Shown: piece after piece, positions 1-16,390 of the stretch
Layout of the letters: each line of letters starts with the position of its first letter
How positions within the stretch are numbered: position 1 is the stretch's first letter
IMG/VR virus record: IMGVR_UViG_3300004461_000498
Span: 1-20,461 of that record
DNA from: a virus
DNA: 20,461 bases
Strand: one strand, 5' to 3'
Translations under genes and position numbers: made by a program
Notes under the pieces: generated by a model
Told to the model about the DNA's origin: nothing
The model's input: the letters and a program-made list of their open reading frames with translations, nothing else
The model's database searches: none

Positions 1-2738
1 GTAGAAGGAATAGTAACCATACCAGTATATTCATTACTGGCACTGACACCTGGATCAATAGTTCCAACTGCTGAATAGGCAAAGATGTTAAATCCTGTGG
101 TCTGACCAGCATTACCAAACTCAACGCTAGGGCTAGATGCATAGTATTGTTTTTGTGCTGGTGTGCCATTTCTATAGGTTAGACGAATGACAAAACTGTA
201 TCTGCTGTTGCCACTGCCTACTGCACCAAAGTCTCCTGACAGATCCCACGTGAGTTGAGTGAAAGGAGTATAGCCTGCCACATTATCAAAGTTATAGTCT
301 TCATAACTGTAATAGGTATCTGTTGACAGTTTGTAATAGATTCTAACACCCTGTATTAAAGTATTGGTAATAGCACTGGTAGCATAGGTAATCTGTGTCA
401 TCTTTACAGAAACACGTCTACGACCTGCAATCTGTTTAGGCAATAGTTGGAACTGATCAATGGTATCATCATACTTGGGTGTTGTGACAACCAATGTGGC
501 ATCTGGTGCCCAACCATCTGTGATCTGAACCACTGTTGGAGGTTGTGCAACACCTGTCAGAACAGTTGAACCTGAGTTTAATGAAACAGTTCCATATAGA
601 ACTTTATTGGATCCACGTCCATCAGATGCAAATGAACGGATGTAGTAGGTAAACACACCATAGGTGCTGATAAAACTCACAGGAATATCACCACCACTGC
701 CTGGTAGTGTGTCCATACGCACCTGTGTCCAAGCACTATAAGCATTGGCACGCCAATACATTATGCTGTATTGGTATAGACCATCATTAGGCTGTGTGAA
801 TATGAGATTATAAGAAACTGTGCTGCCTTGCAATATGGCTGCTGAACTGGATTTTAAACTTAGAACTGCGGAAAAAGGCACAACAGGTGCTGGTGGTGTT
901 GGCGTTACTGGAGCAGGTGGTGATGGCACCACAGGATTATTAGGATCTATTGGAGGTGTTGTTGGTGGCGGGTTTGGCACACTTGGTGGTAATGTTGGAG
1001 GTATTACTGGGAATGGTGCCTGTGTAGGTGGAACCAATCCAATGGGATCTCCTCTATTCACACTTGATGGATAATAGATATCACTGCCTTTTGGCACATA
1101 GATTGCGGCCACTAGGTCTTCTTCATTGTAGCGAGCGTGTGGATAGATGTCATCAGGGTTTTTAACCAAGCCCAATGTCACTGTCATATTGTCATTGATT
1201 TTTACTGACACTACACGCCAAGGAATGATTAGGCTTGAACTTGTGGTAAAGTCTAAGATGTTGCCCTGCACACGAATATTATCACCTGGCTCTAGTTCAA
1301 GACCTTCTGAACTTACTGTCAATGAAATAGTTTCTTGACGACGTGATTTCAAGAATAACAGTTTGGCCATATCTTTGGCAATGGCGTAGTTGGTGATAGT
1401 TGGGAATGTGGCTTCCATTTTATTTTCACGGCCGCCATCTTTCACAATATAACTTTGACGTTCTTCTTCTGTTTCTGGCCATACCACCTGTTGATTACTC
1501 CATTTCTGATCTGGATCAACATAGGTCACAACTACTGCAGAATATTTGTTGGATTTTTCAATACCTGTATAGGTGATACTGCCAACGATATCACAGACAT
1601 TGCCTGTGTATTGGTTTTTAGGATAGGGTTTAGATGTAGCAGTCATTACCACAGTGGCCACACCACTTAGGATATCTGTGTCATTGCCAGCATCTTCAAT
1701 CTTTAGTTTGTATTTGCCTTGAACATAGGGCATATAGCCCCTAAATCCCATTAAAAGCGTCTTAGTGTTGGCAAATATTGTCTGTCCAGTAGATAATACA
1801 AAGTTAGAAGTCAATATAGGACCTGCATAACTCTGTCCAGTGACATAGTTTACTGTGGTATTACATTTGTTGGCTGCTTTGATCCAACTATCCCAATGGA
1901 TATCATTATTGACCAATCCCTTACCATATCTGGGATTGCGTAGATAGTCTAACAGAATCTCTGCTGGATTTGTGGAATAACGCACTGGTGCTTGGCTGTA
2001 TTCATAGCCACTGGCCTGACTGTCTAGTGCGGCAATACGGCGACCTAGTAGTTCAACTTGAACTTCTGGTATGTTGCCTTTGAATGGATTGTTATCAGCA
2101 TCTGCTTGTGTTTTGATTTCTTTCCATTCATAGCGAACTGCCAATGTGGCCAATCCGTTGAAGTTCATTGATGAAGTAAAACTAGGAGAGTCAGCAAAGA
2201 TGTTGGTCTTCCAATAGGAACCAACTGTGCTTGATGCTGGGTTGGCATAGTAAACACCTGGATTCCACATCATACGCACACGACCATTATAGCGATCTGC
2301 GTTGACATCAACAATCTGTCCAGCATTGACATTGGCAGTTAGGTTAGTAGGCAACTCCCAGTCATCAATGAATACCTTGCGTAGACCTTCTACAACACCT
2401 TCACTAAAAACATAGACCACATAGAGATATTTGTTGTTGGTTGATCCAGTTTCAGCAAACACCACTGTGCCACCAACCTTGCGAAATCCATAGACCACAG
2501 GAATATCAATGTTTGAACCTGTCTGCTGTATAAGCACACCCTGTTGACGATCTGCTTCCGCAGCCGCAGAGGGTATGTCTGGCATTCCCCCTAGCATTCC
2601 TAAGAATGGCTGTGCCACAAAGTTGACAACGTCTGCTACAACATTGACAACGGCCTTGACTACAGAACTTACTACATTGACAACTGCCTTGACAACTGAT
2701 GTGACTGCATTGCCAATGGCCTTAAAGACTTTAGCCAT
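1..2738 (-). CDS. Tail-tip / host-specificity protein, J-like (3' part cut off by window edge)
   Basis: The frame is open from ATG at 2738 to the left edge (about 912 residues) with no stop, so the gene is incomplete at its C-terminus. It resembles lambda gpJ-type tail-tip proteins (COG4733 group), which form the tail-tip hub and touch the receptor; I infer this from gene position and from motifs such as VVYGFRKVGG (about residue 80) and VQVELLGRR (about 230). The N-terminus (residues 1-50) is a hydrophobic helical repeat (VVKAVVNVV twice), followed by GMLGGMPDIPSAAAEADRQQG. Hub-like beta domains follow, then a proline-rich linker at about residues 566-616 and a fibronectin-III-like stretch. 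The start ATG overlaps the stop of the upstream GNAT-like gene by 8 nt, which suggests translational coupling. Being last of the tail genes and the longest after the tape measure fits gpJ. Confidence 0.85.
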   Translation of the reverse strand, partial: MAKVFKAIGNAVTSVVKAVVNVVSSVVKAVVNVVADVVNFVAQPFLGMLGGMPDIPSAAAEADRQQGVLIQQTGSNIDIPVVYGFRKVGGTVVFAETGSTNNKYLYVVYVFSEGVVEGLRKVFIDDWELPTNLTANVNAGQIVDVNADRYNGRVRMMWNPGVYYANPASSTVGSYWKTNIFADSPSFTSSMNFNGLATLAVRYEWKEIKTQADADNNPFKGNIPEVQVELLGRRIAALDSQASGYEYSQAPVRYSTNPAEILLDYLRNPRYGKGLVNNDIHWDSWIKAANKCNTTVNYVTGQSYAGPILTSNFVLSTGQTIFANTKTLLMGFRGYMPYVQGKYKLKIEDAGNDTDILSGVATVVMTATSKPYPKNQYTGNVCDIVGSITYTGIEKSNKYSAVVVTYVDPDQKWSNQQVVWPETEEERQSYIVKDGGRENKMEATFPTITNYAIAKDMAKLLFLKSRRQETISLTVSSEGLELEPGDNIRVQGNILDFTTSSSLIIPWRVVSVKINDNMTVTLGLVKNPDDIYPHARYNEEDLVAAIYVPKGSDIYYPSSVNRGDPIGLVPPTQAPFPVIPPTLPPSVPNPPPTTPPIDPNNPVVPSPPAPVTPTPPAPVVPFSAVLSLKSSSAAILQGSTVSYNLIFTQPNDGLYQYSIMYWRANAYSAWTQVRMDTLPGSGGDIPVSFISTYGVFTYYIRSFASDGRGSNKVLYGTVSLNSGSTVLTGVAQPPTVVQITDGWAPDATLVVTTPKYDDTIDQFQLLPKQIAGRRRVSVKMTQITYATSAITNTLIQGVRIYYKLSTDTYYSYEDYNFDNVAGYTPFTQLTWDLSGDFGAVGSGNSRYSFVIRLTYRNGTPAQKQYYASSPSVEFGNAGQTTGFNIFAYSAVGTIDPGVSASNEYTGMVTIPS

Positions 2739-3198
2739 TGATCAACTCCTTTTCTAACCATACACCTGGTTTGAAATCAAAATGTTCAAACAGTTTTCGT
2801 GTGCGTTCTGGATTGATGCCAATATCGCCTGCAGTCATTGAACGAGCCTTGATAGTCTTGCTCCATTCTTCAAACTTTGAGATCAATACTCGGAAGTTAT
2901 CCATATTTTTATGACTGTCTAGCAAAAAGATAAAAGCAATATTGGCATCAATAAGTTCACTGTTCCAGGGACATTCACTGGCATAGCCAGCAATGAATCC
3001 TATGGGACGCTGTCCTTCATAGGCATTGAACCAGCAGTGATCCCATTTGCTGGCAAAATGTTTAATGGTCTTGATAACAGAGTTTTCATCATATTCATCT
3101 GCTATTCTTGGCAAGGATTCCACGGCTTCATCTCTGTAGTAACCAAATAGGTTTACAGTGACATCAAACTCCTGTGGTATCATTTGTCTTACGATCAT
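2731..3198 (-). CDS. GNAT-like acyltransferase-fold protein in the tail module
   Basis: A 155-residue protein. The C-terminal part (from about residue 123, GDIGINPERTRKLFEHFDF, then KPGVWLEKEL) matches the end of GNAT N-acetyltransferases, where a helix is followed by a GF-type turn and a basic end. The middle (RPIGFIAGYAS, about 65-75) fits the beta strands before the acetyl-CoA site. The usual pyrophosphate-binding loop (Q/RxxGxG/A) is not evident; the corresponding place reads LLDSHKNMDNFRVLI. It may therefore bind a ligand without classical acetyltransferase activity. It sits between the L-like and J-like genes, where lambda-like phages carry the K (NlpC/P60) gene and I. The gene begins 1 nt after the preceding stop and its own stop overlaps the next ATG. 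Fold assignment is moderately sure; substrate unknown. Confidence 0.6.
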   Translation of the reverse strand: MIVRQMIPQEFDVTVNLFGYYRDEAVESLPRIADEYDENSVIKTIKHFASKWDHCWFNAYEGQRPIGFIAGYASECPWNSELIDANIAFIFLLDSHKNMDNFRVLISKFEEWSKTIKARSMTAGDIGINPERTRKLFEHFDFKPGVWLEKELING

Positions 3199-10628: not shown

Positions 10629-11531
10629 TTAGATCAAGCAGTCTGCTGTGATTGCAACACCAAATGTTCTTTGTAGAACCTGTGCACCTGCTACTGATTT
10701 CAATACAACATCAGTTGCGCGGTTAGCAGGCAAATACAATGTGTTCATTTCTACAGAACCACGCATTGCGTGACCTGTTGAACCTGGAGTGAATACCAAT
10801 GCCTTGGCATCGTCACTACCGTCAACTGTCAATAATGCTGATTCAAAAATCTGAACACCAGCCAATGAGCCAATGTAGAAACCACCTAGGATGCTTTCAG
10901 CAACAGAGTTCATTGCGGCACCACGGTTTTCTGCGAATGATGTTCCACTTGCAGTTGCACCGTTGTAGGCAATAACTTTAGTCATAGCATCTTTCAATGC
11001 GTATGCTTGTGCTGGGTGAACCACTGCATAGAAAGGACCTGTTAGTTTACGCTGACGTAAAGTTGCAGCCGCTTTCAAGATCAATGTAGGTGTTAGTTCA
11101 TTACCTGCTGTGCCTAGGTCTGTGGAGAAACCATATGTGCCGTCAGCCATAGCGTCAAACACCTGCTTGTCCATAGACTCAGCAATAGCACGACCACTTT
11201 GCTCACCAATCTGTGCGAAGACATTGCTGTAAGCAGAGTCTTTCAACTGATCAGTTACTTGATGGTAAACCACGTGTTCTTTCAAAGTGATTGTTGCTGA
11301 AGTTGTGTTTGTTGTCAATGCTGTTGCTGCCGCTTCATCAGCGATCAATGAAGCACTAACGCTAGACCAGATTGGAACTTGTAGGTTTAAACCTGTGTTC
11401 AATGGTGCGTCAAACACTGTTACTAGTTGACGAGCGATTGACTGCTCGTATGCGGCGAACTGAGCGGCTGTAACAAGGTTTGCATACAGTTCGTTGTTGA
11501 TATTGGTATTACTATTTGATGGATAACTCAT
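10629..11531 (-). CDS. Major capsid protein
   Basis: A 300-residue protein in the canonical place after scaffold. The pattern is that of HK97-fold capsid proteins: an N-terminal helix (LYANLVTAAQFAAYEQSIAR), a region on the way to the P-domain (IGEQSGRAIAESMDKQVFDA at about 105-125), TLILKAAATLRQRKLTGPFY with AVVHPAQAYALKD (about 150-180), and late beta strands (VEMNTLYLPANRATDVVLKS). AAAGGA lies 7 nt before ATG. The length suits a small isometric head. There is no N-terminal extension of the HK97 delta-domain type, in agreement with a separate scaffold gene. A terminator follows. Confidence 0.88.
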   Translation of the reverse strand: MSYPSNSNTNINNELYANLVTAAQFAAYEQSIARQLVTVFDAPLNTGLNLQVPIWSSVSASLIADEAAATALTTNTTSATITLKEHVVYHQVTDQLKDSAYSNVFAQIGEQSGRAIAESMDKQVFDAMADGTYGFSTDLGTAGNELTPTLILKAAATLRQRKLTGPFYAVVHPAQAYALKDAMTKVIAYNGATASGTSFAENRGAAMNSVAESILGGFYIGSLAGVQIFESALLTVDGSDDAKALVFTPGSTGHAMRGSVEMNTLYLPANRATDVVLKSVAGAQVLQRTFGVAITADCLI

Positions 11532-11554: not shown

Positions 11555-12235
11555 TTATCTACCTTGATTGGATTTCCATTGTGCGTAGACCTTGCGATCT
11601 GCTGGCTTGGACATATCCAACTTGGTAACATCTATTTGTTGAGATCCCGTTCCTGAGCCAATGCTATTGCGAGTCTGTGTAGTTGCAGGGCCTGCTGCCA
11701 CAAAATGTGGATTAGCATCTAAGAAGTTCTTTACAAGATCTTCAACTCCCCAGGCATCCCCATTGTCTTTGTAACGGGTCATACCATTTGTGTCAACTAC
11801 TTCTACTTCACCATCTGGTGTCATTTTAATCTGATTACGCAACAATGCCTTGACCTGTTCAGGGGCTACGGCACGATATTTGGCTGCGGTCTCAACTAAA
11901 GGACTATCCACACGATACTGTGCAATAATACTATCTCTTTTAGCGATCTCTGCGTCTTTTTTAGAAGCCATCTCTTTTAGAATCTGTTCAAAGTCTCCCT
12001 TGCCCTTGTGTTCTTCAAACTGTTTGTTTTCAAACTGTTCTTTTAGAGCACGAAGTTCATCTGGTGACCCCAGTTCAGCATAGGCTTTTACGGCCTTGCG
12101 TTCTACGGCTGCACGGGTTTTGGCCATTGCATCGTCAAACTCTTTCTGAGAATAAAACTTCTCTTGTGCCTGATCTTCACCTTGTTGGTCAGCGACAGTT
12201 GCTGGTTTTGTTGCCAATGTATTTTGTAAGTCCAT
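11555..12235 (-). CDS. Capsid scaffolding protein
   Basis: A protein of 226 residues from ATG 12235 (MDLQNTLATKPATVADQQGE). An in-frame GTG at 12286 would give 243 residues, but ATG 12235 has a strong AAAGGAGG about 11 nt upstream, while the GTG lies inside a hairpin (12278-12295). The protein is charged and helical: FYSQKEFDDAMAKTRAAVER, then a coiled-coil Glu/Lys-rich stretch (KGDFEQILKEMASKKDAEIA), then a helix-turn region and a C-terminal end (DVTKLDMSKPADRKVYAQWK). This order fits scaffolding proteins that guide prohead assembly and leave. It is directly before the capsid gene (23-nt gap). Confidence 0.8.
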   Translation of the reverse strand: MDLQNTLATKPATVADQQGEDQAQEKFYSQKEFDDAMAKTRAAVERKAVKAYAELGSPDELRALKEQFENKQFEEHKGKGDFEQILKEMASKKDAEIAKRDSIIAQYRVDSPLVETAAKYRAVAPEQVKALLRNQIKMTPDGEVEVVDTNGMTRYKDNGDAWGVEDLVKNFLDANPHFVAAGPATTQTRNSIGSGTGSQQIDVTKLDMSKPADRKVYAQWKSNQGR

Positions 12236-12277
12236 TGTAGACTCTGCCTCCTTTGGAGTGTTTGTTTTAGAATAATA

Positions 12278-12295
12278 TTTAGCCACCTGGCTAAA
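12278..12295 (-). repeat. Short perfect inverted repeat near scaffold gene start
   Basis: TTTAGCCA and TGGCTAAA face each other around CC, covering the alternative GTG start (12286) and the gap after the preceding small gene. As RNA it would sequester that GTG, so it supports use of the downstream ATG (12235). Regulatory role is not shown. Confidence 0.4.
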
Positions 12296-12302
12296 ATATC
12301 AT

Positions 12303-12473
12303 TTACTTATGCCCGTGTTTTTTGCCAGTATGGGTTTTTGAGCCTGTATAACCATTGGCATACATTGCTCGCATCTGATTTAATGCACCTGCACGAGTAG
12401 GATAAACGTGACCACTGTTACCATATTTGTAGCCTGTGGCACCTGATTTAGTTTTCACTTTCATTATGGGCAT
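12303..12473 (-). CDS. Small basic phage protein (56 residues)
   Basis: ATG 12473 opens MPIMKVKTKSGATGYKYGNS, then GHVYPTRAGALNQMRAMYAN, then a His/Lys/Gly-rich end (TGKKHGHK). It is strongly basic with few acidic residues. The pattern Y.YG.SG.VY.....A..Q.RA.YA.GY recurs in very small proteins of marine tailed phages located in the head region; I recognise the pattern but no function. It could bind nucleic acid. It lies between the 52-residue gene and scaffold. Confidence 0.65.
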   Translation of the reverse strand: MPIMKVKTKSGATGYKYGNSGHVYPTRAGALNQMRAMYANGYTGSKTHTGKKHGHK

Positions 12474-12484
12474 ATCAATACCTC

Positions 12485-12643
12485 TTAGGGGGTTTTACTG
12501 GTTTTTTCTTCTTCATTTTTCTGCTCCTTTTTACCAAATATTAGATCCCAGTTGGATTCAAACTGTGATTTATTTTCAGGTTCACGTTGTGTGTATTTGA
12601 GATCTCTCCAGCGGACCTCTGTGCTTGAGTATCTTGCGTCCAT
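12485..12643 (-). CDS. Small protein (52 residues), unknown
   Basis: ATG 12643 overlaps the stop of the Dps-like gene (TAATG). The product begins MDARYSSTEVRWRDLKYTQR, continues EPENKSQFESNWDLIFGKKE, and ends in a Lys/Glu-rich tail. Coupling to the upstream gene and a charged, coding-like composition support translation. No domain is recognised. It might work with the portal or scaffold, but that is only by position. Confidence 0.6.
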   Translation of the reverse strand: MDARYSSTEVRWRDLKYTQREPENKSQFESNWDLIFGKKEQKNEEEKTSKTP

Positions 12644-13155
12644 TATAGTTTAGGTGTGGGTTCTTCTGGTATGCCCATTTCTTTGTCAGCGGCCATTTCA
12701 GCGGCTGCTACTGCTGGATCTTCCATTGAAGCACCCAACATCCAGCATAGTTTTTCAGCATCTTCTAGATAGTCTGCTAGGATATTTTGCAGGCCATAGC
12801 GACCTTCTTTCTGACAAAGGTCAAAGGCCTTGACCGCATCCATTCTAACTGTTTCAACGTCAGCGTATAGTTCCATCCACATATCTTCAGGGCAGGGCAC
12901 CACTTTCTCATCAACGATTGTGGTCAGTTGACGGATACGATCTATTGAGAATGGCACAACATCACCCAAGGTGCGGCTGCCTTCTGCTAGACGGTCAATA
13001 TACTCTTGAAAGTTCACATAGATCTTTTCTAGGAACTGATGATTGGCAAAGAATCCACAACCTGTGACGTTGACGTGGAATCCGTGGCTTTTAGTGTAAA
13101 GAGCAAAGTTGTCTGCCCATAGTTGTTTCATTGCGTTTGATAGTTGTGTGCTCAT
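12643..13155 (-). CDS. Dps/ferritin-like protein
   Basis: A 170-residue protein with the Dps signature. Residues 23-65 align without gaps to E. coli Dps around its ferroxidase site: His27 (Dps H51), His39 (H63), Glu43 (D67, conservative), Asp54 (D78) and Glu58 (E82). KSHGFHVNVTG and YIDRLAEGSRTLGD are the core motifs; Trp52 of Dps is replaced by Val28. The C-terminal NILADYLEDAEKLCWMLGA (residues 124-142) is the typical final helix. Dps proteins form 12-subunit shells that oxidise iron with peroxide, and some bind DNA. The N-terminal tail before helix A is very short (4 residues) and there is an acidic C-terminal extension of about 25 residues. It lies between portal and scaffold, joined by TAATG overlaps on both sides. 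Confidence 0.85.
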   Translation of the reverse strand: MSTQLSNAMKQLWADNFALYTKSHGFHVNVTGCGFFANHQFLEKIYVNFQEYIDRLAEGSRTLGDVVPFSIDRIRQLTTIVDEKVVPCPEDMWMELYADVETVRMDAVKAFDLCQKEGRYGLQNILADYLEDAEKLCWMLGASMEDPAVAAAEMAADKEMGIPEEPTPKL

Positions 13156-14600
13156 TACTGAACTCCTTGTTGTGTTATGTTCTGTGCTTGTTGTTGAACT
13201 TCATTGATCAAGCCCTGAGCCACTGGAGCAGGATCTTGATACAGCATTGGATCTGTGAGATAGTTGTTGAAATCTTCATTGCCTAAGGCAGTGACCATAA
13301 TCTCATAGTCCAACATCTTTTGATATTCAGGATTGACCACAGCGGCGCGGGCCTGGACCAAGGCTGTGAGTTCATTCTTCTTGTCCTGTATGTTAAATGT
13401 GTCTGGATATTCTATTTCACCATCCCAGGTTCTGCCTTGATATGCACACCAGTAGAACCAAATGTTGTCTTCACAGAGTTCAAGATTATCTGCTTTGTCT
13501 GATAATCTTGCATTCAACATCTGAAACTCTGTTTCCATTGCCACACCACTCATTGTTGATGTTTTGGTAGCACGGGCACTTCCCAAGTTGGCCATACGAT
13601 CAATGGCTTCAATACGCTGTTTCATTGACTCATAGACTGCTGATACTGTGGCACCATTAGGCTGTAACAAGAATGGCTTCAGGCCTGGATCTAGATTGTC
13701 TTCCATCTGCACCACTGAGCCAGCACCTGCCACTGCTTCTGTGCCTGCTGTTTTGACTAATGAGGGGTGACCATTGATACGGATAGTCTGTTCTACTTCA
13801 CTATATTCATTGTATATGGCTCGCTGTAGATCTGCGATGTCATCTACTGATGAAACACCTACGCCACGCTTGGGACTGCGTTGATCATAGCAGATGGTAA
13901 TAGGAATATAACCAAGTCCATTGGCTTCAACAATATGTTCTTTGATCAGTTGATCTTCTTTGTCCATTATTGAAGTTTCAATGCGATCTGGGAACCATTC
14001 TTTGATGGTCAAGATGTGGCTGCGATCACTATCTTCCATATATTTGAAATACTTGAGGTGATACATACCTGCTTGACTGCGTTCCCATTCCCAGTCTAGT
14101 GCTGACAGTGGAGTAATCATTGACACATAAGGTCTAGCACCTACTGTCATTTCATCTGCACGAGTAACAGCCCCTACATTGGGCTTTGAAACAATCACCC
14201 AGCAATGGCCAAACACGCCTGAATATGTAGAAACATCCTTCATAAATGAATCAAAACTCTGCCCCTCTAGTGTGGCATCATCCAAGAAGTCTTGTAGCAT
14301 TACATCACCTTCTAGGCTGGCAAAGTCACGCATAGGTGGCTTACGGAACATAAAGGCATTGTAGACTGCCAGCACACCTTTAACGTGATTGTCTAAGGGT
14401 GTGGTCCACATACGAGTGATGTAGTCCTGTTCACTTTCATTGGCGTATCTGGTTAGATACTGTCCTTGACGATACATTTCACCGCCTAGAAAACTGTTTA
14501 GGAGGAATCTCCAACGTCCATTTAGGTTTTGATACTGTTCGTGTGTTCCCAGTAGTGCTTCATACTGTTTGCTGGAACCTACTCCTGTGTTTTGTGGCAT
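13155..14600 (-). CDS. Portal protein
   Basis: A 481-residue protein directly after the large terminase, the normal place of the portal, the dodecameric ring for DNA entry and exit. Marks include DYITRMWTTPLDNHVKGVLA (about 60-80), the beta/alpha wing with YVSMITPLSALDWEWER (about 153-170), ADLQRAIYNEYSEVEQTIR (about 255-275), the crown/stem region LGSARATKTSTMSGVAMETE (about 346-365), and a Gln-rich C-terminus (NEVQQQAQNITQQGVQ). It resembles the portal type of marine siphoviruses (DUF4055-like, a tentative label). Its start follows the terminase stop by 10 nt. Confidence 0.85.
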   Translation of the reverse strand: MPQNTGVGSSKQYEALLGTHEQYQNLNGRWRFLLNSFLGGEMYRQGQYLTRYANESEQDYITRMWTTPLDNHVKGVLAVYNAFMFRKPPMRDFASLEGDVMLQDFLDDATLEGQSFDSFMKDVSTYSGVFGHCWVIVSKPNVGAVTRADEMTVGARPYVSMITPLSALDWEWERSQAGMYHLKYFKYMEDSDRSHILTIKEWFPDRIETSIMDKEDQLIKEHIVEANGLGYIPITICYDQRSPKRGVGVSSVDDIADLQRAIYNEYSEVEQTIRINGHPSLVKTAGTEAVAGAGSVVQMEDNLDPGLKPFLLQPNGATVSAVYESMKQRIEAIDRMANLGSARATKTSTMSGVAMETEFQMLNARLSDKADNLELCEDNIWFYWCAYQGRTWDGEIEYPDTFNIQDKKNELTALVQARAAVVNPEYQKMLDYEIMVTALGNEDFNNYLTDPMLYQDPAPVAQGLINEVQQQAQNITQQGVQ

Positions 14601-14610
14601 TTTTTCTTCC

Positions 14611-15921
14611 TCAATATCTGTAAGTTGTTGTTGTTCTTGCGGCTCGGGTATCTAGTGAATGTCCCCAGGTTGTAGGCTGAGCAACACCGCTGTGATCGCG
14701 ACCAATGGGGAATAGATAGTCAACCATATAACCCAAGGCATCCATCATATGATCATAGCCTGACTCTTTGTCTGGCTGACTGGTGCCTTCTTTGTAGGTC
14801 TGACGCTCTAGTCCCTCAATAGTGTATTTACAGCGCGGATCTATAAAGAGGTGTCTAATGCCTGATGTTGAACACAATCTTGAGTTCACTGCATTGATAC
14901 GATCTCGCACTGGTGTATGGCTGTGTGGTGCCTTTACGACAAATCCTGCGTTTTGGAGGATGGTGATGTCAGTAGAGCCACCTGCTGATGTTTTTCTTTG
15001 TCGTGCCGCTGGATCTGGATATGCCCAGATTTTAGCACTTGGATATCTGCTTTTAACTTCATCCACTGCTTCTTGGGTGTTAGAAGAAAACATACGGATT
15101 TCATCAATGACATAGAGACTGTCTCCTGAACGAACTGCTATGACCACACTCATAGGATCTATGTTAAAGTCCCATCCAGTGTAGAGAACCTGCTGTTTGA
15201 TGTCTTTGAATGGTCCTTTAGGATCTGAGATGTTTATGGGCACAACATTGTGAGCACGGTCAAAGCCATAGTAGATACGACCTGCAAAGGTTTCAAAGGT
15301 TGCTAGGTATTCTTGATTAAATGTGCGAGCATCCAGGTCTCTGCGTGCCTGTTGTATTTCTTCTTCAGGAACTTGTCCACCATCAATAGTGGTAAAAGTA
15401 TATGATGCCCAGTGTTGGGGATCTTCTAGGGTATTCTGATAGAGTTCATAGGCCCAGTTGCCAATGCCCTTGGGTGTGCCAATAAACAGAGCACGGCCCT
15501 GCTTGTCTGATAGTGTAGGGCGTAGTGTTTCAAACCAAGCGTCTGGTGCTATGTCAGCGAACTCATCCAATACGATAAAGTCCAGCCCAACTCCACGCAG
15601 ACTATCGTGATTATCAGCGCCTTTAAGAGATATAGTAGATCCATTTTTGAGATGGATGGTAAGTTCAGTTTCATTTATTTTGTCTGCCCATTTTAGGTCT
15701 TGCAGTCTATGTTTGAGTTTCTTCCAGGTGATGTTCTTTGATTGTCTATATGAGGGACTCACATACCAAACATCCTTGTTGGGCAGTCTAGCGTGATAGC
15801 ATAACTCACGGATGGCCAGATGTGTTTTGCCAAACCTTCGTCCCGCTACGCAGACACGAAATCTAGTTGCATCTTTGGCTATTTTATTCTGGGCTGGTGT
15901 CAGCATCATCTTCTGCTTCAT
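14611..15921 (-). CDS. terL: Terminase large subunit
   Basis: A 436-residue packaging motor. Walker A is GRRFGKT at residues 27-33, Walker B is FIVLDE at 115-120, and the coupling motif is FIGTPKG at 146-152. The RNase H-like nuclease domain starts at about 245 with TGWDFNIDPMS, Asp251 being the first metal ligand; YDHMMDALGYMVDYLFP near residue 395 is the C-terminal acidic nuclease motif. It cuts concatemers and drives DNA into the prohead through the portal. The gene start overlaps the small terminase by 38 nt; an alternative ATG lies at residue 5. Stop is TGA. Confidence 0.96.
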   Translation of the reverse strand: MKQKMMLTPAQNKIAKDATRFRVCVAGRRFGKTHLAIRELCYHARLPNKDVWYVSPSYRQSKNITWKKLKHRLQDLKWADKINETELTIHLKNGSTISLKGADNHDSLRGVGLDFIVLDEFADIAPDAWFETLRPTLSDKQGRALFIGTPKGIGNWAYELYQNTLEDPQHWASYTFTTIDGGQVPEEEIQQARRDLDARTFNQEYLATFETFAGRIYYGFDRAHNVVPINISDPKGPFKDIKQQVLYTGWDFNIDPMSVVIAVRSGDSLYVIDEIRMFSSNTQEAVDEVKSRYPSAKIWAYPDPAARQRKTSAGGSTDITILQNAGFVVKAPHSHTPVRDRINAVNSRLCSTSGIRHLFIDPRCKYTIEGLERQTYKEGTSQPDKESGYDHMMDALGYMVDYLFPIGRDHSGVAQPTTWGHSLDTRAARTTTTYRY

Positions 15922-16390
15922 TCCAAGGTAAAGGCTGATTTTCTTGTGAACTATTAGGATTGTCGCTCATACCCAACAGGTTCTTAGATAGCCATATCTG
16001 CATCACTGCATTGCCACCTAAGGCATTCTTTAACATAGCACGGCGCAATGACATTTTGACATCTTCACGGCCCTTTGCTAGAATATCGCTAAAGTTGTAT
16101 TTTAAGGTGCTTTCTGCTATGTCAAACCAACGGGCTATTTCACTGTCATTACAGCCTATTGCTGCCAGTTCGTAGACGTCTTGTGGTGCCACAACCTTCT
16201 TACGGTTACCTCTGCCCACTTCATAGCCAAATACTTCCACTGCCACCAACTGCTTGGGCTTGTTGCCTGTCTTGCTAGGGTCTCTAGGTGGGGGCTCCTG
16301 GTAGGGCAGTATGGTAAACTGCTCACCACTGGGTTCTTTGCTAGGATCACTGGGTTCAAGCCCTAGTTCTAGTGCTTCTTCAGGGGTCAT
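15884..16390 (-). CDS. terS: Terminase small subunit
   Basis: A 168-residue protein with a disordered Pro/Gly-rich N-terminus (1-45) and a helix-turn-helix at about 70-100 (DVYELAAIGCNDSEIARWFD, IAESTLKYNF) for binding packaging-site DNA. A central helix (MSLRRAMLKNALGGNAVMQI) serves oligomerisation, and the acidic C-terminus (EAEDDADTSPE) suits contact with the large subunit. It overlaps the terL start by 38 nt and the upstream adaptor-like gene by TAATG at 16390. Confidence 0.88.
   Translation of the reverse strand: MTPEEALELGLEPSDPSKEPSGEQFTILPYQEPPPRDPSKTGNKPKQLVAVEVFGYEVGRGNRKKVVAPQDVYELAAIGCNDSEIARWFDIAESTLKYNFSDILAKGREDVKMSLRRAMLKNALGGNAVMQIWLSKNLLGMSDNPNSSQENQPLPWNEAEDDADTSPE

Follow-up and report, generated by a model that had tools for sequence, protein, structure and literature searches.

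The window, by which we mean the whole stretch of viral DNA analysed here (20,461 nucleotides, positions 1 to 20,461 of IMG/VR record IMGVR_UViG_3300004461_000498), carries a head operon on its minus strand in which a gene of the Dps family lies between the portal and scaffolding genes, a position referred to below as the slot. The features are listed in the order of transcription, with the basis of each in brackets.

15884..16390, minus strand: terminase small subunit (PHROG 309, E=6e-9)
14611..15921, minus strand: terminase large subunit (PF03237, E=9e-18)
13155..14600, minus strand: portal protein, 481 aa (PHROG 145, E=3e-59)
13163-13168, minus strand: AAGGAG ribosome site inside the portal gene (sequence)
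13153..13157, minus strand: TAATG overlap of the portal stop and the Dps start (sequence)
12643..13155, minus strand: Dps-family mini-ferritin, 170 aa (Pfam, PHROG, AlphaFold model, dN/dS)
13075..13077, minus strand: codon of ligand H27 (invariant in all sets compared, partly biased by the search patterns)
13039..13041, minus strand: codon of ligand H39 (invariant in all sets)
13027..13029, minus strand: codon of the variable ligand E43 (E in 28 of 41 slot homologues)
12994..12996, minus strand: codon of ligand D54 (invariant in all sets)
12982..12984, minus strand: codon of ligand E58 (invariant in all sets)
12646..12720, minus strand: acidic C-terminal tail, residues about 146-170, ending in GIPEEPTPKL (conserved in the window's clade)
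12485..12643, minus strand: 52-aa ORF whose ATG overlaps the Dps stop (ORF of the same length at the same place in relatives L062 and L140)
12303..12473, minus strand: 56-aa basic ORF between Dps and scaffold (ORF of the same length in L062 and L140)
11555..12286, minus strand: head scaffolding protein (PHROG 206, E=1e-8)
10629..11531, minus strand: major capsid protein (PF25209, E=4e-9; PHROG 267, E=5e-12)

The sequence-only reading of this DNA had the Dps gene coupled by TAATG overlaps to both the portal and the scaffold genes. Towards the portal this stands, with the overlap at 13153-13157 and the AAGGAG site; the scaffold part was wrong, because the second TAATG, at the Dps stop, opens the 52-aa ORF, which is followed by the 56-aa ORF, and the scaffold start at 12286 lies 356 bases downstream. 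The Dps gene is under purifying selection, like the portal gene (dN/dS against near relatives of 0.08-0.22 for Dps and 0.09-0.13 for the portal). Scans of the window for promoters and terminators gave matches no more numerous than in shuffled sequences, and a search for the host through related prophages found no relative among genome contigs. Elsewhere in the window, a GNAT-like acetyltransferase is encoded among the tail genes at 2731-3198 (PHROG 1249, E=8.5e-10), and a 913-codon frame on the minus strand (3-2741), which lies outside the standard ORF list and runs off the window end, probably encodes a tail protein.

Analysis of the product of 12643-13155 showed a match to the Pfam Ferritin family (PF00210, E=1.5e-14, 54.5 bits against a cut-off of 24.5) and to PHROG 3636 (E=8.7e-28, profile positions 5-148 of 149), and the closest sequence in the PDB was the P. 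aeruginosa Dps PA0962 (8ff9, E=4e-15). The AlphaFold model, built as a single chain on an alignment of 19 relatives, has a mean pLDDT of 83 and predicts helices at residues 3-29, 35-62, 71-77, 89-117 and 120-143, that is, the four long helices of a ferritin-like bundle and the short BC-loop helix of the Dps family. When the model was overlaid on solved structures by Foldseek and VIA-align, only Dps chains were among the matches listed, with Z of 20-22.5, TM of about 0.84-0.92 by target length and an rmsd of 1.3-1.5 A to most of the best-matching structures. The profile matches, the PDB sequence match and the predicted fold agree, and together they identify the product as a genuine Dps-family mini-ferritin, as had been claimed from the sequence. 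It is best read as ferroxidase-competent, and it would presumably assemble as a homododecamer with a hollow core. The predicted fold is common to bacterial Dps proteins (PA0962, HP-NAP, T. pallidum TpF1, B. subtilis MrgA), and the ferroxidase ligand positions and core length are also the same; the window protein differs from them in being the product of a phage late gene, in having Val instead of the Trp next to the site, in its conserved acidic C-terminal tail and in lacking a basic N-terminal extension.

Residues H27, H39, E43, D54 and E58 align without gaps with the Dps ferroxidase ligands and follow the family pattern (H, H, D/E, D, E at standard spacing), a correspondence that, as an alignment, is far beyond chance. 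These positions were compared in 41 distinct slot Dps sequences, 65 sequences from T4-like and other contexts and 71 sequences of a second lineage. All three sets have H27, H39, D54 and E58 without exception; the invariance of H27 was partly selected for, because the stretch around it was used as a search pattern, as was that around H39 in the last survey, and D54 and E58 lay in no pattern used for the scans of viral contigs. Where position 43 of the slot sequences is not E, it is Q, K, N or G; in the non-slot sets, the second lineage included, it is mostly G or A, and S also occurs among relatives. Dps activity may vary among relatives, since E43 is lost in many. The earlier statement that all five ligands are present at exact spacing is correct for the window, and among relatives it extends to four of them; conservation of all five was rejected because position 43 varies. 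The fold and ligand test that the earlier reading had proposed for its own refutation consequently gave a mixed result, with a four-helix bundle and four of the five ligands invariant.

The residue after H27 is Val in the window (position 28), as it is throughout the window's clade and in one T4-like clade, and Trp elsewhere. The loss of this Trp, noticed from the sequence, is real, although no more than about half of the slot homologues show it (21 V, 20 W). In characterised Dps proteins this Trp adjoins the ferroxidase site; its loss is therefore relevant to the quenching of radicals and to iron chemistry, and gives little reason to suppose altered DNA binding. Binding of DNA in the E. coli manner, which uses a basic, flexible N- or C-terminal tail, is unlikely for the window protein: its N-terminus is short and non-basic (nine residues precede the first Lys, none of them basic) and its C-terminal tail is net acidic (EDPAVAAAEMAADKEMGIPEEPTPKL). 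This tail is conserved in the window's Dps clade, with G161, P163 and E164 invariant, and the model predicts a helix at 147-160 and has low confidence beyond it; a docking function is possible. We rejected the idea that the acidic tail marks head-located Dps, as it is missing from the capsid-seeded slot proteins of L192, L194, L147, L225 and L226; it belongs to the window's own Dps clade.

One explanation to be weighed at this point is that the protein has lost its iron chemistry and serves purely as a structural head or scaffold component, its four-helix cage or bundle acting as an assembly aid. The replacement of Trp28 by Val and the loss of E43 in many relatives would agree with this, and we still consider it very improbable, since it is difficult to see why H27, H39, D54 and E58 should be invariant in more than 170 divergent sequences if no metal chemistry were involved.

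The order terminase, portal, Dps, small ORFs, scaffold and capsid was kept in every head-operon relative, with Dps identities from 95% down to 42%. The synteny survey was repeated with the capsid and the portal as seeds, which avoids selection for Dps. In a hand count of the best 80 capsid-seeded loci, Dps occupied the slot in 41, 26 had no Dps and 13 were cut, giving 41 of 67 resolvable loci with Dps between portal and scaffold. Dps is thus often present in the slot and yet dispensable there; many relatives that share the portal, scaffold and capsid have no Dps, which argues again that it is not an essential building part of the head. The slot of the relatives without Dps holds varied accessory ORFs, including one that resembles an HNH nuclease (judged by eye, not by family search), and because unrelated accessory genes also occupy the slot, the position alone is no proof of a structural role. 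The same variety would suit a second explanation, in which the slot is simply a convenient site for late expression and Dps stays in the host cytoplasm, limiting iron and peroxide damage during assembly and packaging. We regard this late cytosolic protector as rather unlikely, and also as the main rival of a role in the head.

The divergence of Dps is correlated with that of the portal (Mantel r 0.63) and of the capsid (r 0.39), with 0 of 2000 permutations reaching either value and near-copies inflating both figures. Against L002 and L003, synonymous divergence is 0.4-0.55 for Dps and portal and only about 0.1 for the scaffold (window 11555-12643 compared), which suggests that Dps travels with the portal and that a recombination point lies between Dps and scaffold. 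In L155 (2592-3495) and L167 (2112-3501), members of a clade that we take to be of bog-lake origin, portal and Dps are separated by several extra small ORFs.

A tree of 70 Dps domains, which took in only five bacterial proteins, divided the slot Dps of the window's phage family between two clades. The sister group of the window's clade consists of Dps proteins encoded in the tail-fibre region of T4-like phages (support 100/94), and the branches starred in the tree force at least two changes. A single origin of slot Dps in this phage family is not supported, as the T4-like clade separates the two slot clades; Dps thus seems to have arrived in the slot on at least two occasions, unless the Dps of the T4-like clade came from slot phages. 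Among L234-L294, many apparently T4-like contigs have a Dps gene of 143-150 aa between tail-fibre-like genes and an apparent DNA polymerase, the neighbours being identified by clustering and by eye.

A large number of phage Dps genes are found away from head modules, for example beside tail-fibre, tRNA or replication genes, and this counts in favour of a cytosolic protector. Proposals of the same kind, protection of the infected cell, have been published for gut and Lactobacillus phages (PMC8008677, PMC6669764). The phage proteins of PHROG 3636 and the published cases from Lactobacillus phages, Gratiaviridae and Privateer belong to the same phage-encoded family as the window protein. In the isolates inspected (Gilson, S-SRM01 and Privateer) and in the L. 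plantarum phages as described (PMC6669764), the Dps gene is outside the head genes, whereas in the window it is coupled to the portal. Mass spectrometry of purified virions of Privateer, a prolate podophage, did, however, detect a Dps family protein (PMC7881722), a finding that a cytosolic protector leaves unexplained; we take it as supportive of a head role and not as proof, because the protein is very distant from the window Dps in our tree and its gene lies among replication genes. Our literature search, with subscription journals outside its coverage, turned up no account of a Dps gene in a head operon or of a fusion between Dps and a prohead protease.

A search with more distant Dps sequences uncovered phages with a second kind of portal, PHROG 776, which goes undetected by the profile built on the window's portal family (profile-profile probability 0.5%). 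In 63 of the 64 PHROG 776 loci with both genes, the distance from the portal stop to the Dps start is -4 to 17 nt, and in the remaining one Dps lies just upstream of the portal. As these loci were found through Dps, they show where Dps is located and not how frequent it is in such phages.

Dps domains were also found in single ORFs with head proteins. A Ferritin domain and an S78 prohead protease share an ORF in L480, L486 and L501 (each domain E<=1e-12; in L480 a protein of 673 aa with domain E-values of 1e-47 and 3.9e-15), and L485 has a Dps-S78 fusion ORF cut by the contig end. Other single ORFs join the Ferritin domain to an XkdF protease (L489), to a portal/maturation-protease polyprotein (L494, PHROGs 859 and 18402) and to a minor head protein (L298, PHROG 16619). 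BFVD independently contains Dps folds inside proteins named prohead protease. The window's own Dps is not fused to any head protein. Because prohead proteases work within the procapsid, a Dps domain that forms part of the same polypeptide should enter it as well. Fusions to procapsid proteins would also agree with the purely structural role discussed above. Late cytosolic protection, by contrast, leaves unexplained both these recurrent fusions to prohead protease, XkdF and portal proteins and the close portal coupling in two portal families.

The survey of the neighbours of Dps-like phage genes thus showed that linkage to head genes recurs, in the slot, in the second portal family and in the fusions. 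The link to head morphogenesis made by the sequence-only reading is supported by the conserved synteny, the second portal family, the Dps-prohead protease fusions and the distant Privateer virion protein. What that reading had observed was confirmed in part, the scaffold coupling being wrong and E43 varying among relatives. Its interpretation is supported for Dps identity and the head link and not for the argument from Trp to DNA binding, and the protection of packaged or host DNA that it proposed is an inference.

A head-associated role is the leading explanation because Dps recurs beside portals and in fusions with procapsid proteins; among the points against it are that Dps is missing from many relatives and that so many phage Dps genes are outside head modules. 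We put at about even the chances that the window protein is made late, coupled to the portal, and is probably an internal procapsid or virion head protein near the portal that protects against iron and peroxide. According to this proposal, Dps would be translated late in coupling with the portal protein and would end up in the procapsid or virion, packaged inside the head near the portal. The ferroxidase sites of its cage would then take up Fe(II) and consume peroxide, either in the head or on the way into the cell, and Fenton chemistry might thereby be kept from the packaged genome.

A cysteine-rich domain resembling high-potential iron-sulfur proteins (HiPIP-like) recurs at the same loci. 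It is present at the C-terminus of slot Dps proteins (L141, L193, L196-L199, L228) and of many portals of relatives, including that of L002, which in its core shares 95% identity with the window's portal.

L002:3889-5772, L101:251-2215, L129, L225:3143-4990, L226, L230, L376-L408: portals with the C-terminal HiPIP-like domain, long or short form

In L002, L225, L226 and L230 the domain is on the portal and Dps is encoded by the gene beside it. In other loci the domain has an ORF to itself, which immediately precedes Dps (L060, L234) or immediately follows it (L301); in L308, L310 and L327 it is part of a larger protein encoded after Dps, and in L314, L326, L345, L495 and L500 it belongs to a multi-domain protein that includes Dps. 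Slot Dps proteins and portals also exchange the domain at their C-termini. The domain has the HiPIP pattern C-x2-C ... C ... C-x2-W, and the best PDB matches of the short-form profile are solved HiPIPs (E=2e-4); Pfam HIPIP scores the short form at 21.2 bits, just below the cut-off of 22. It differs from HiPIP in being fused to a portal, prohead protease or Dps, and in having a longer form for which no PDB sequence match was found. No confident fold was obtained for this long form, the domain having a pLDDT under 60 in the model of the L141 fusion; in GenBank it is annotated as HiPIP in phages such as DSL-LC01, where it lies next to capsid maturation proteases. In the S78 protease of Pontimonas phage phiPsal1 (L212:3809-5263), the N-terminal residues of about 50-120 match the short form by tblastn. 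A literature search for HiPIP on portals found no report, subscription journals being outside its coverage.

The shared attachment points of the HiPIP-like domain and Dps suggest joint iron or redox work in the head. A more specific explanation would make the two a pair, a virion iron supply or redox module in which Dps iron is used by or exchanged with Fe-S or Fe sites of the virion, such as the HiPIP-like domain or tail proteins. The fusions of the domain to Dps in slot and multi-domain proteins, the loci in which the two are adjacent (L234, L301, L308, L310, L327), their presence on neighbouring genes and the HiPIP matches of the short form would favour it. We find it improbable for the window, where no HiPIP-like domain was found in six frames, the portal included, and most slot-Dps loci of its clade also lack one; moreover, most HiPIP-like domains in the survey do not adjoin a Dps, the long form has neither PDB match nor confident model, and cluster binding by the domain is putative.

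For tailed phages in general, we tentatively propose, at somewhat less than even chances, that several unrelated lineages carry an iron kit in their heads, consisting of Dps, often with a HiPIP-like Fe-S domain, and reaching the procapsid because it is synthesised together with, or joined in one chain to, portals, prohead proteases and minor head proteins. Phage Dps proteins are already known and have been read as cytosolic stress or auxiliary genes; their repeated physical association with portal, prohead protease and minor head proteins speaks for a role in the particle instead. If that is so, capsids carry enzymatic cargo, a defined protein is added to the debate on iron in phage particles (the Ferrojan Horse idea), and a way is suggested in which virions survive peroxide and iron in sediments and lakes; a particle with such a kit would be a naturally iron-loaded or redox-protected capsid. 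It would also be the viral equivalent of encapsulins loaded with ferritin, whose shells are believed to have originated from HK97-type phages (PMC8346489). Like encapsulins with ferritin-like cargo, the window genetically couples an HK97-fold shell to a ferritin-like protein. Encapsulin shells stand without phage terminase, portal and tail genes, whereas the window has all of these, and a tape measure too, and has neither an encapsulin shell nor a known cargo-loading peptide.

Several of the Dps-bearing proteins contain further domains. In L480 (3326-5347), L485 and L486, a polynucleotide-kinase/HAD-like domain is in one ORF with the Dps domain and the S78 protease. The Dps-bearing minor head protein of L298 (872-3268) also has a zeta-toxin-like kinase domain, and the gene next to it encodes an XkdF protease with a long cysteine domain. 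Dps proteins of 726-803 aa with a long cysteine domain and DUF5824 are encoded in L314 (664-2895), L326 (2675-5086) and L345 (2813-4993), directly after the PHROG 776 portal where the portal gene is complete, and that of L326 is also ParB-like.
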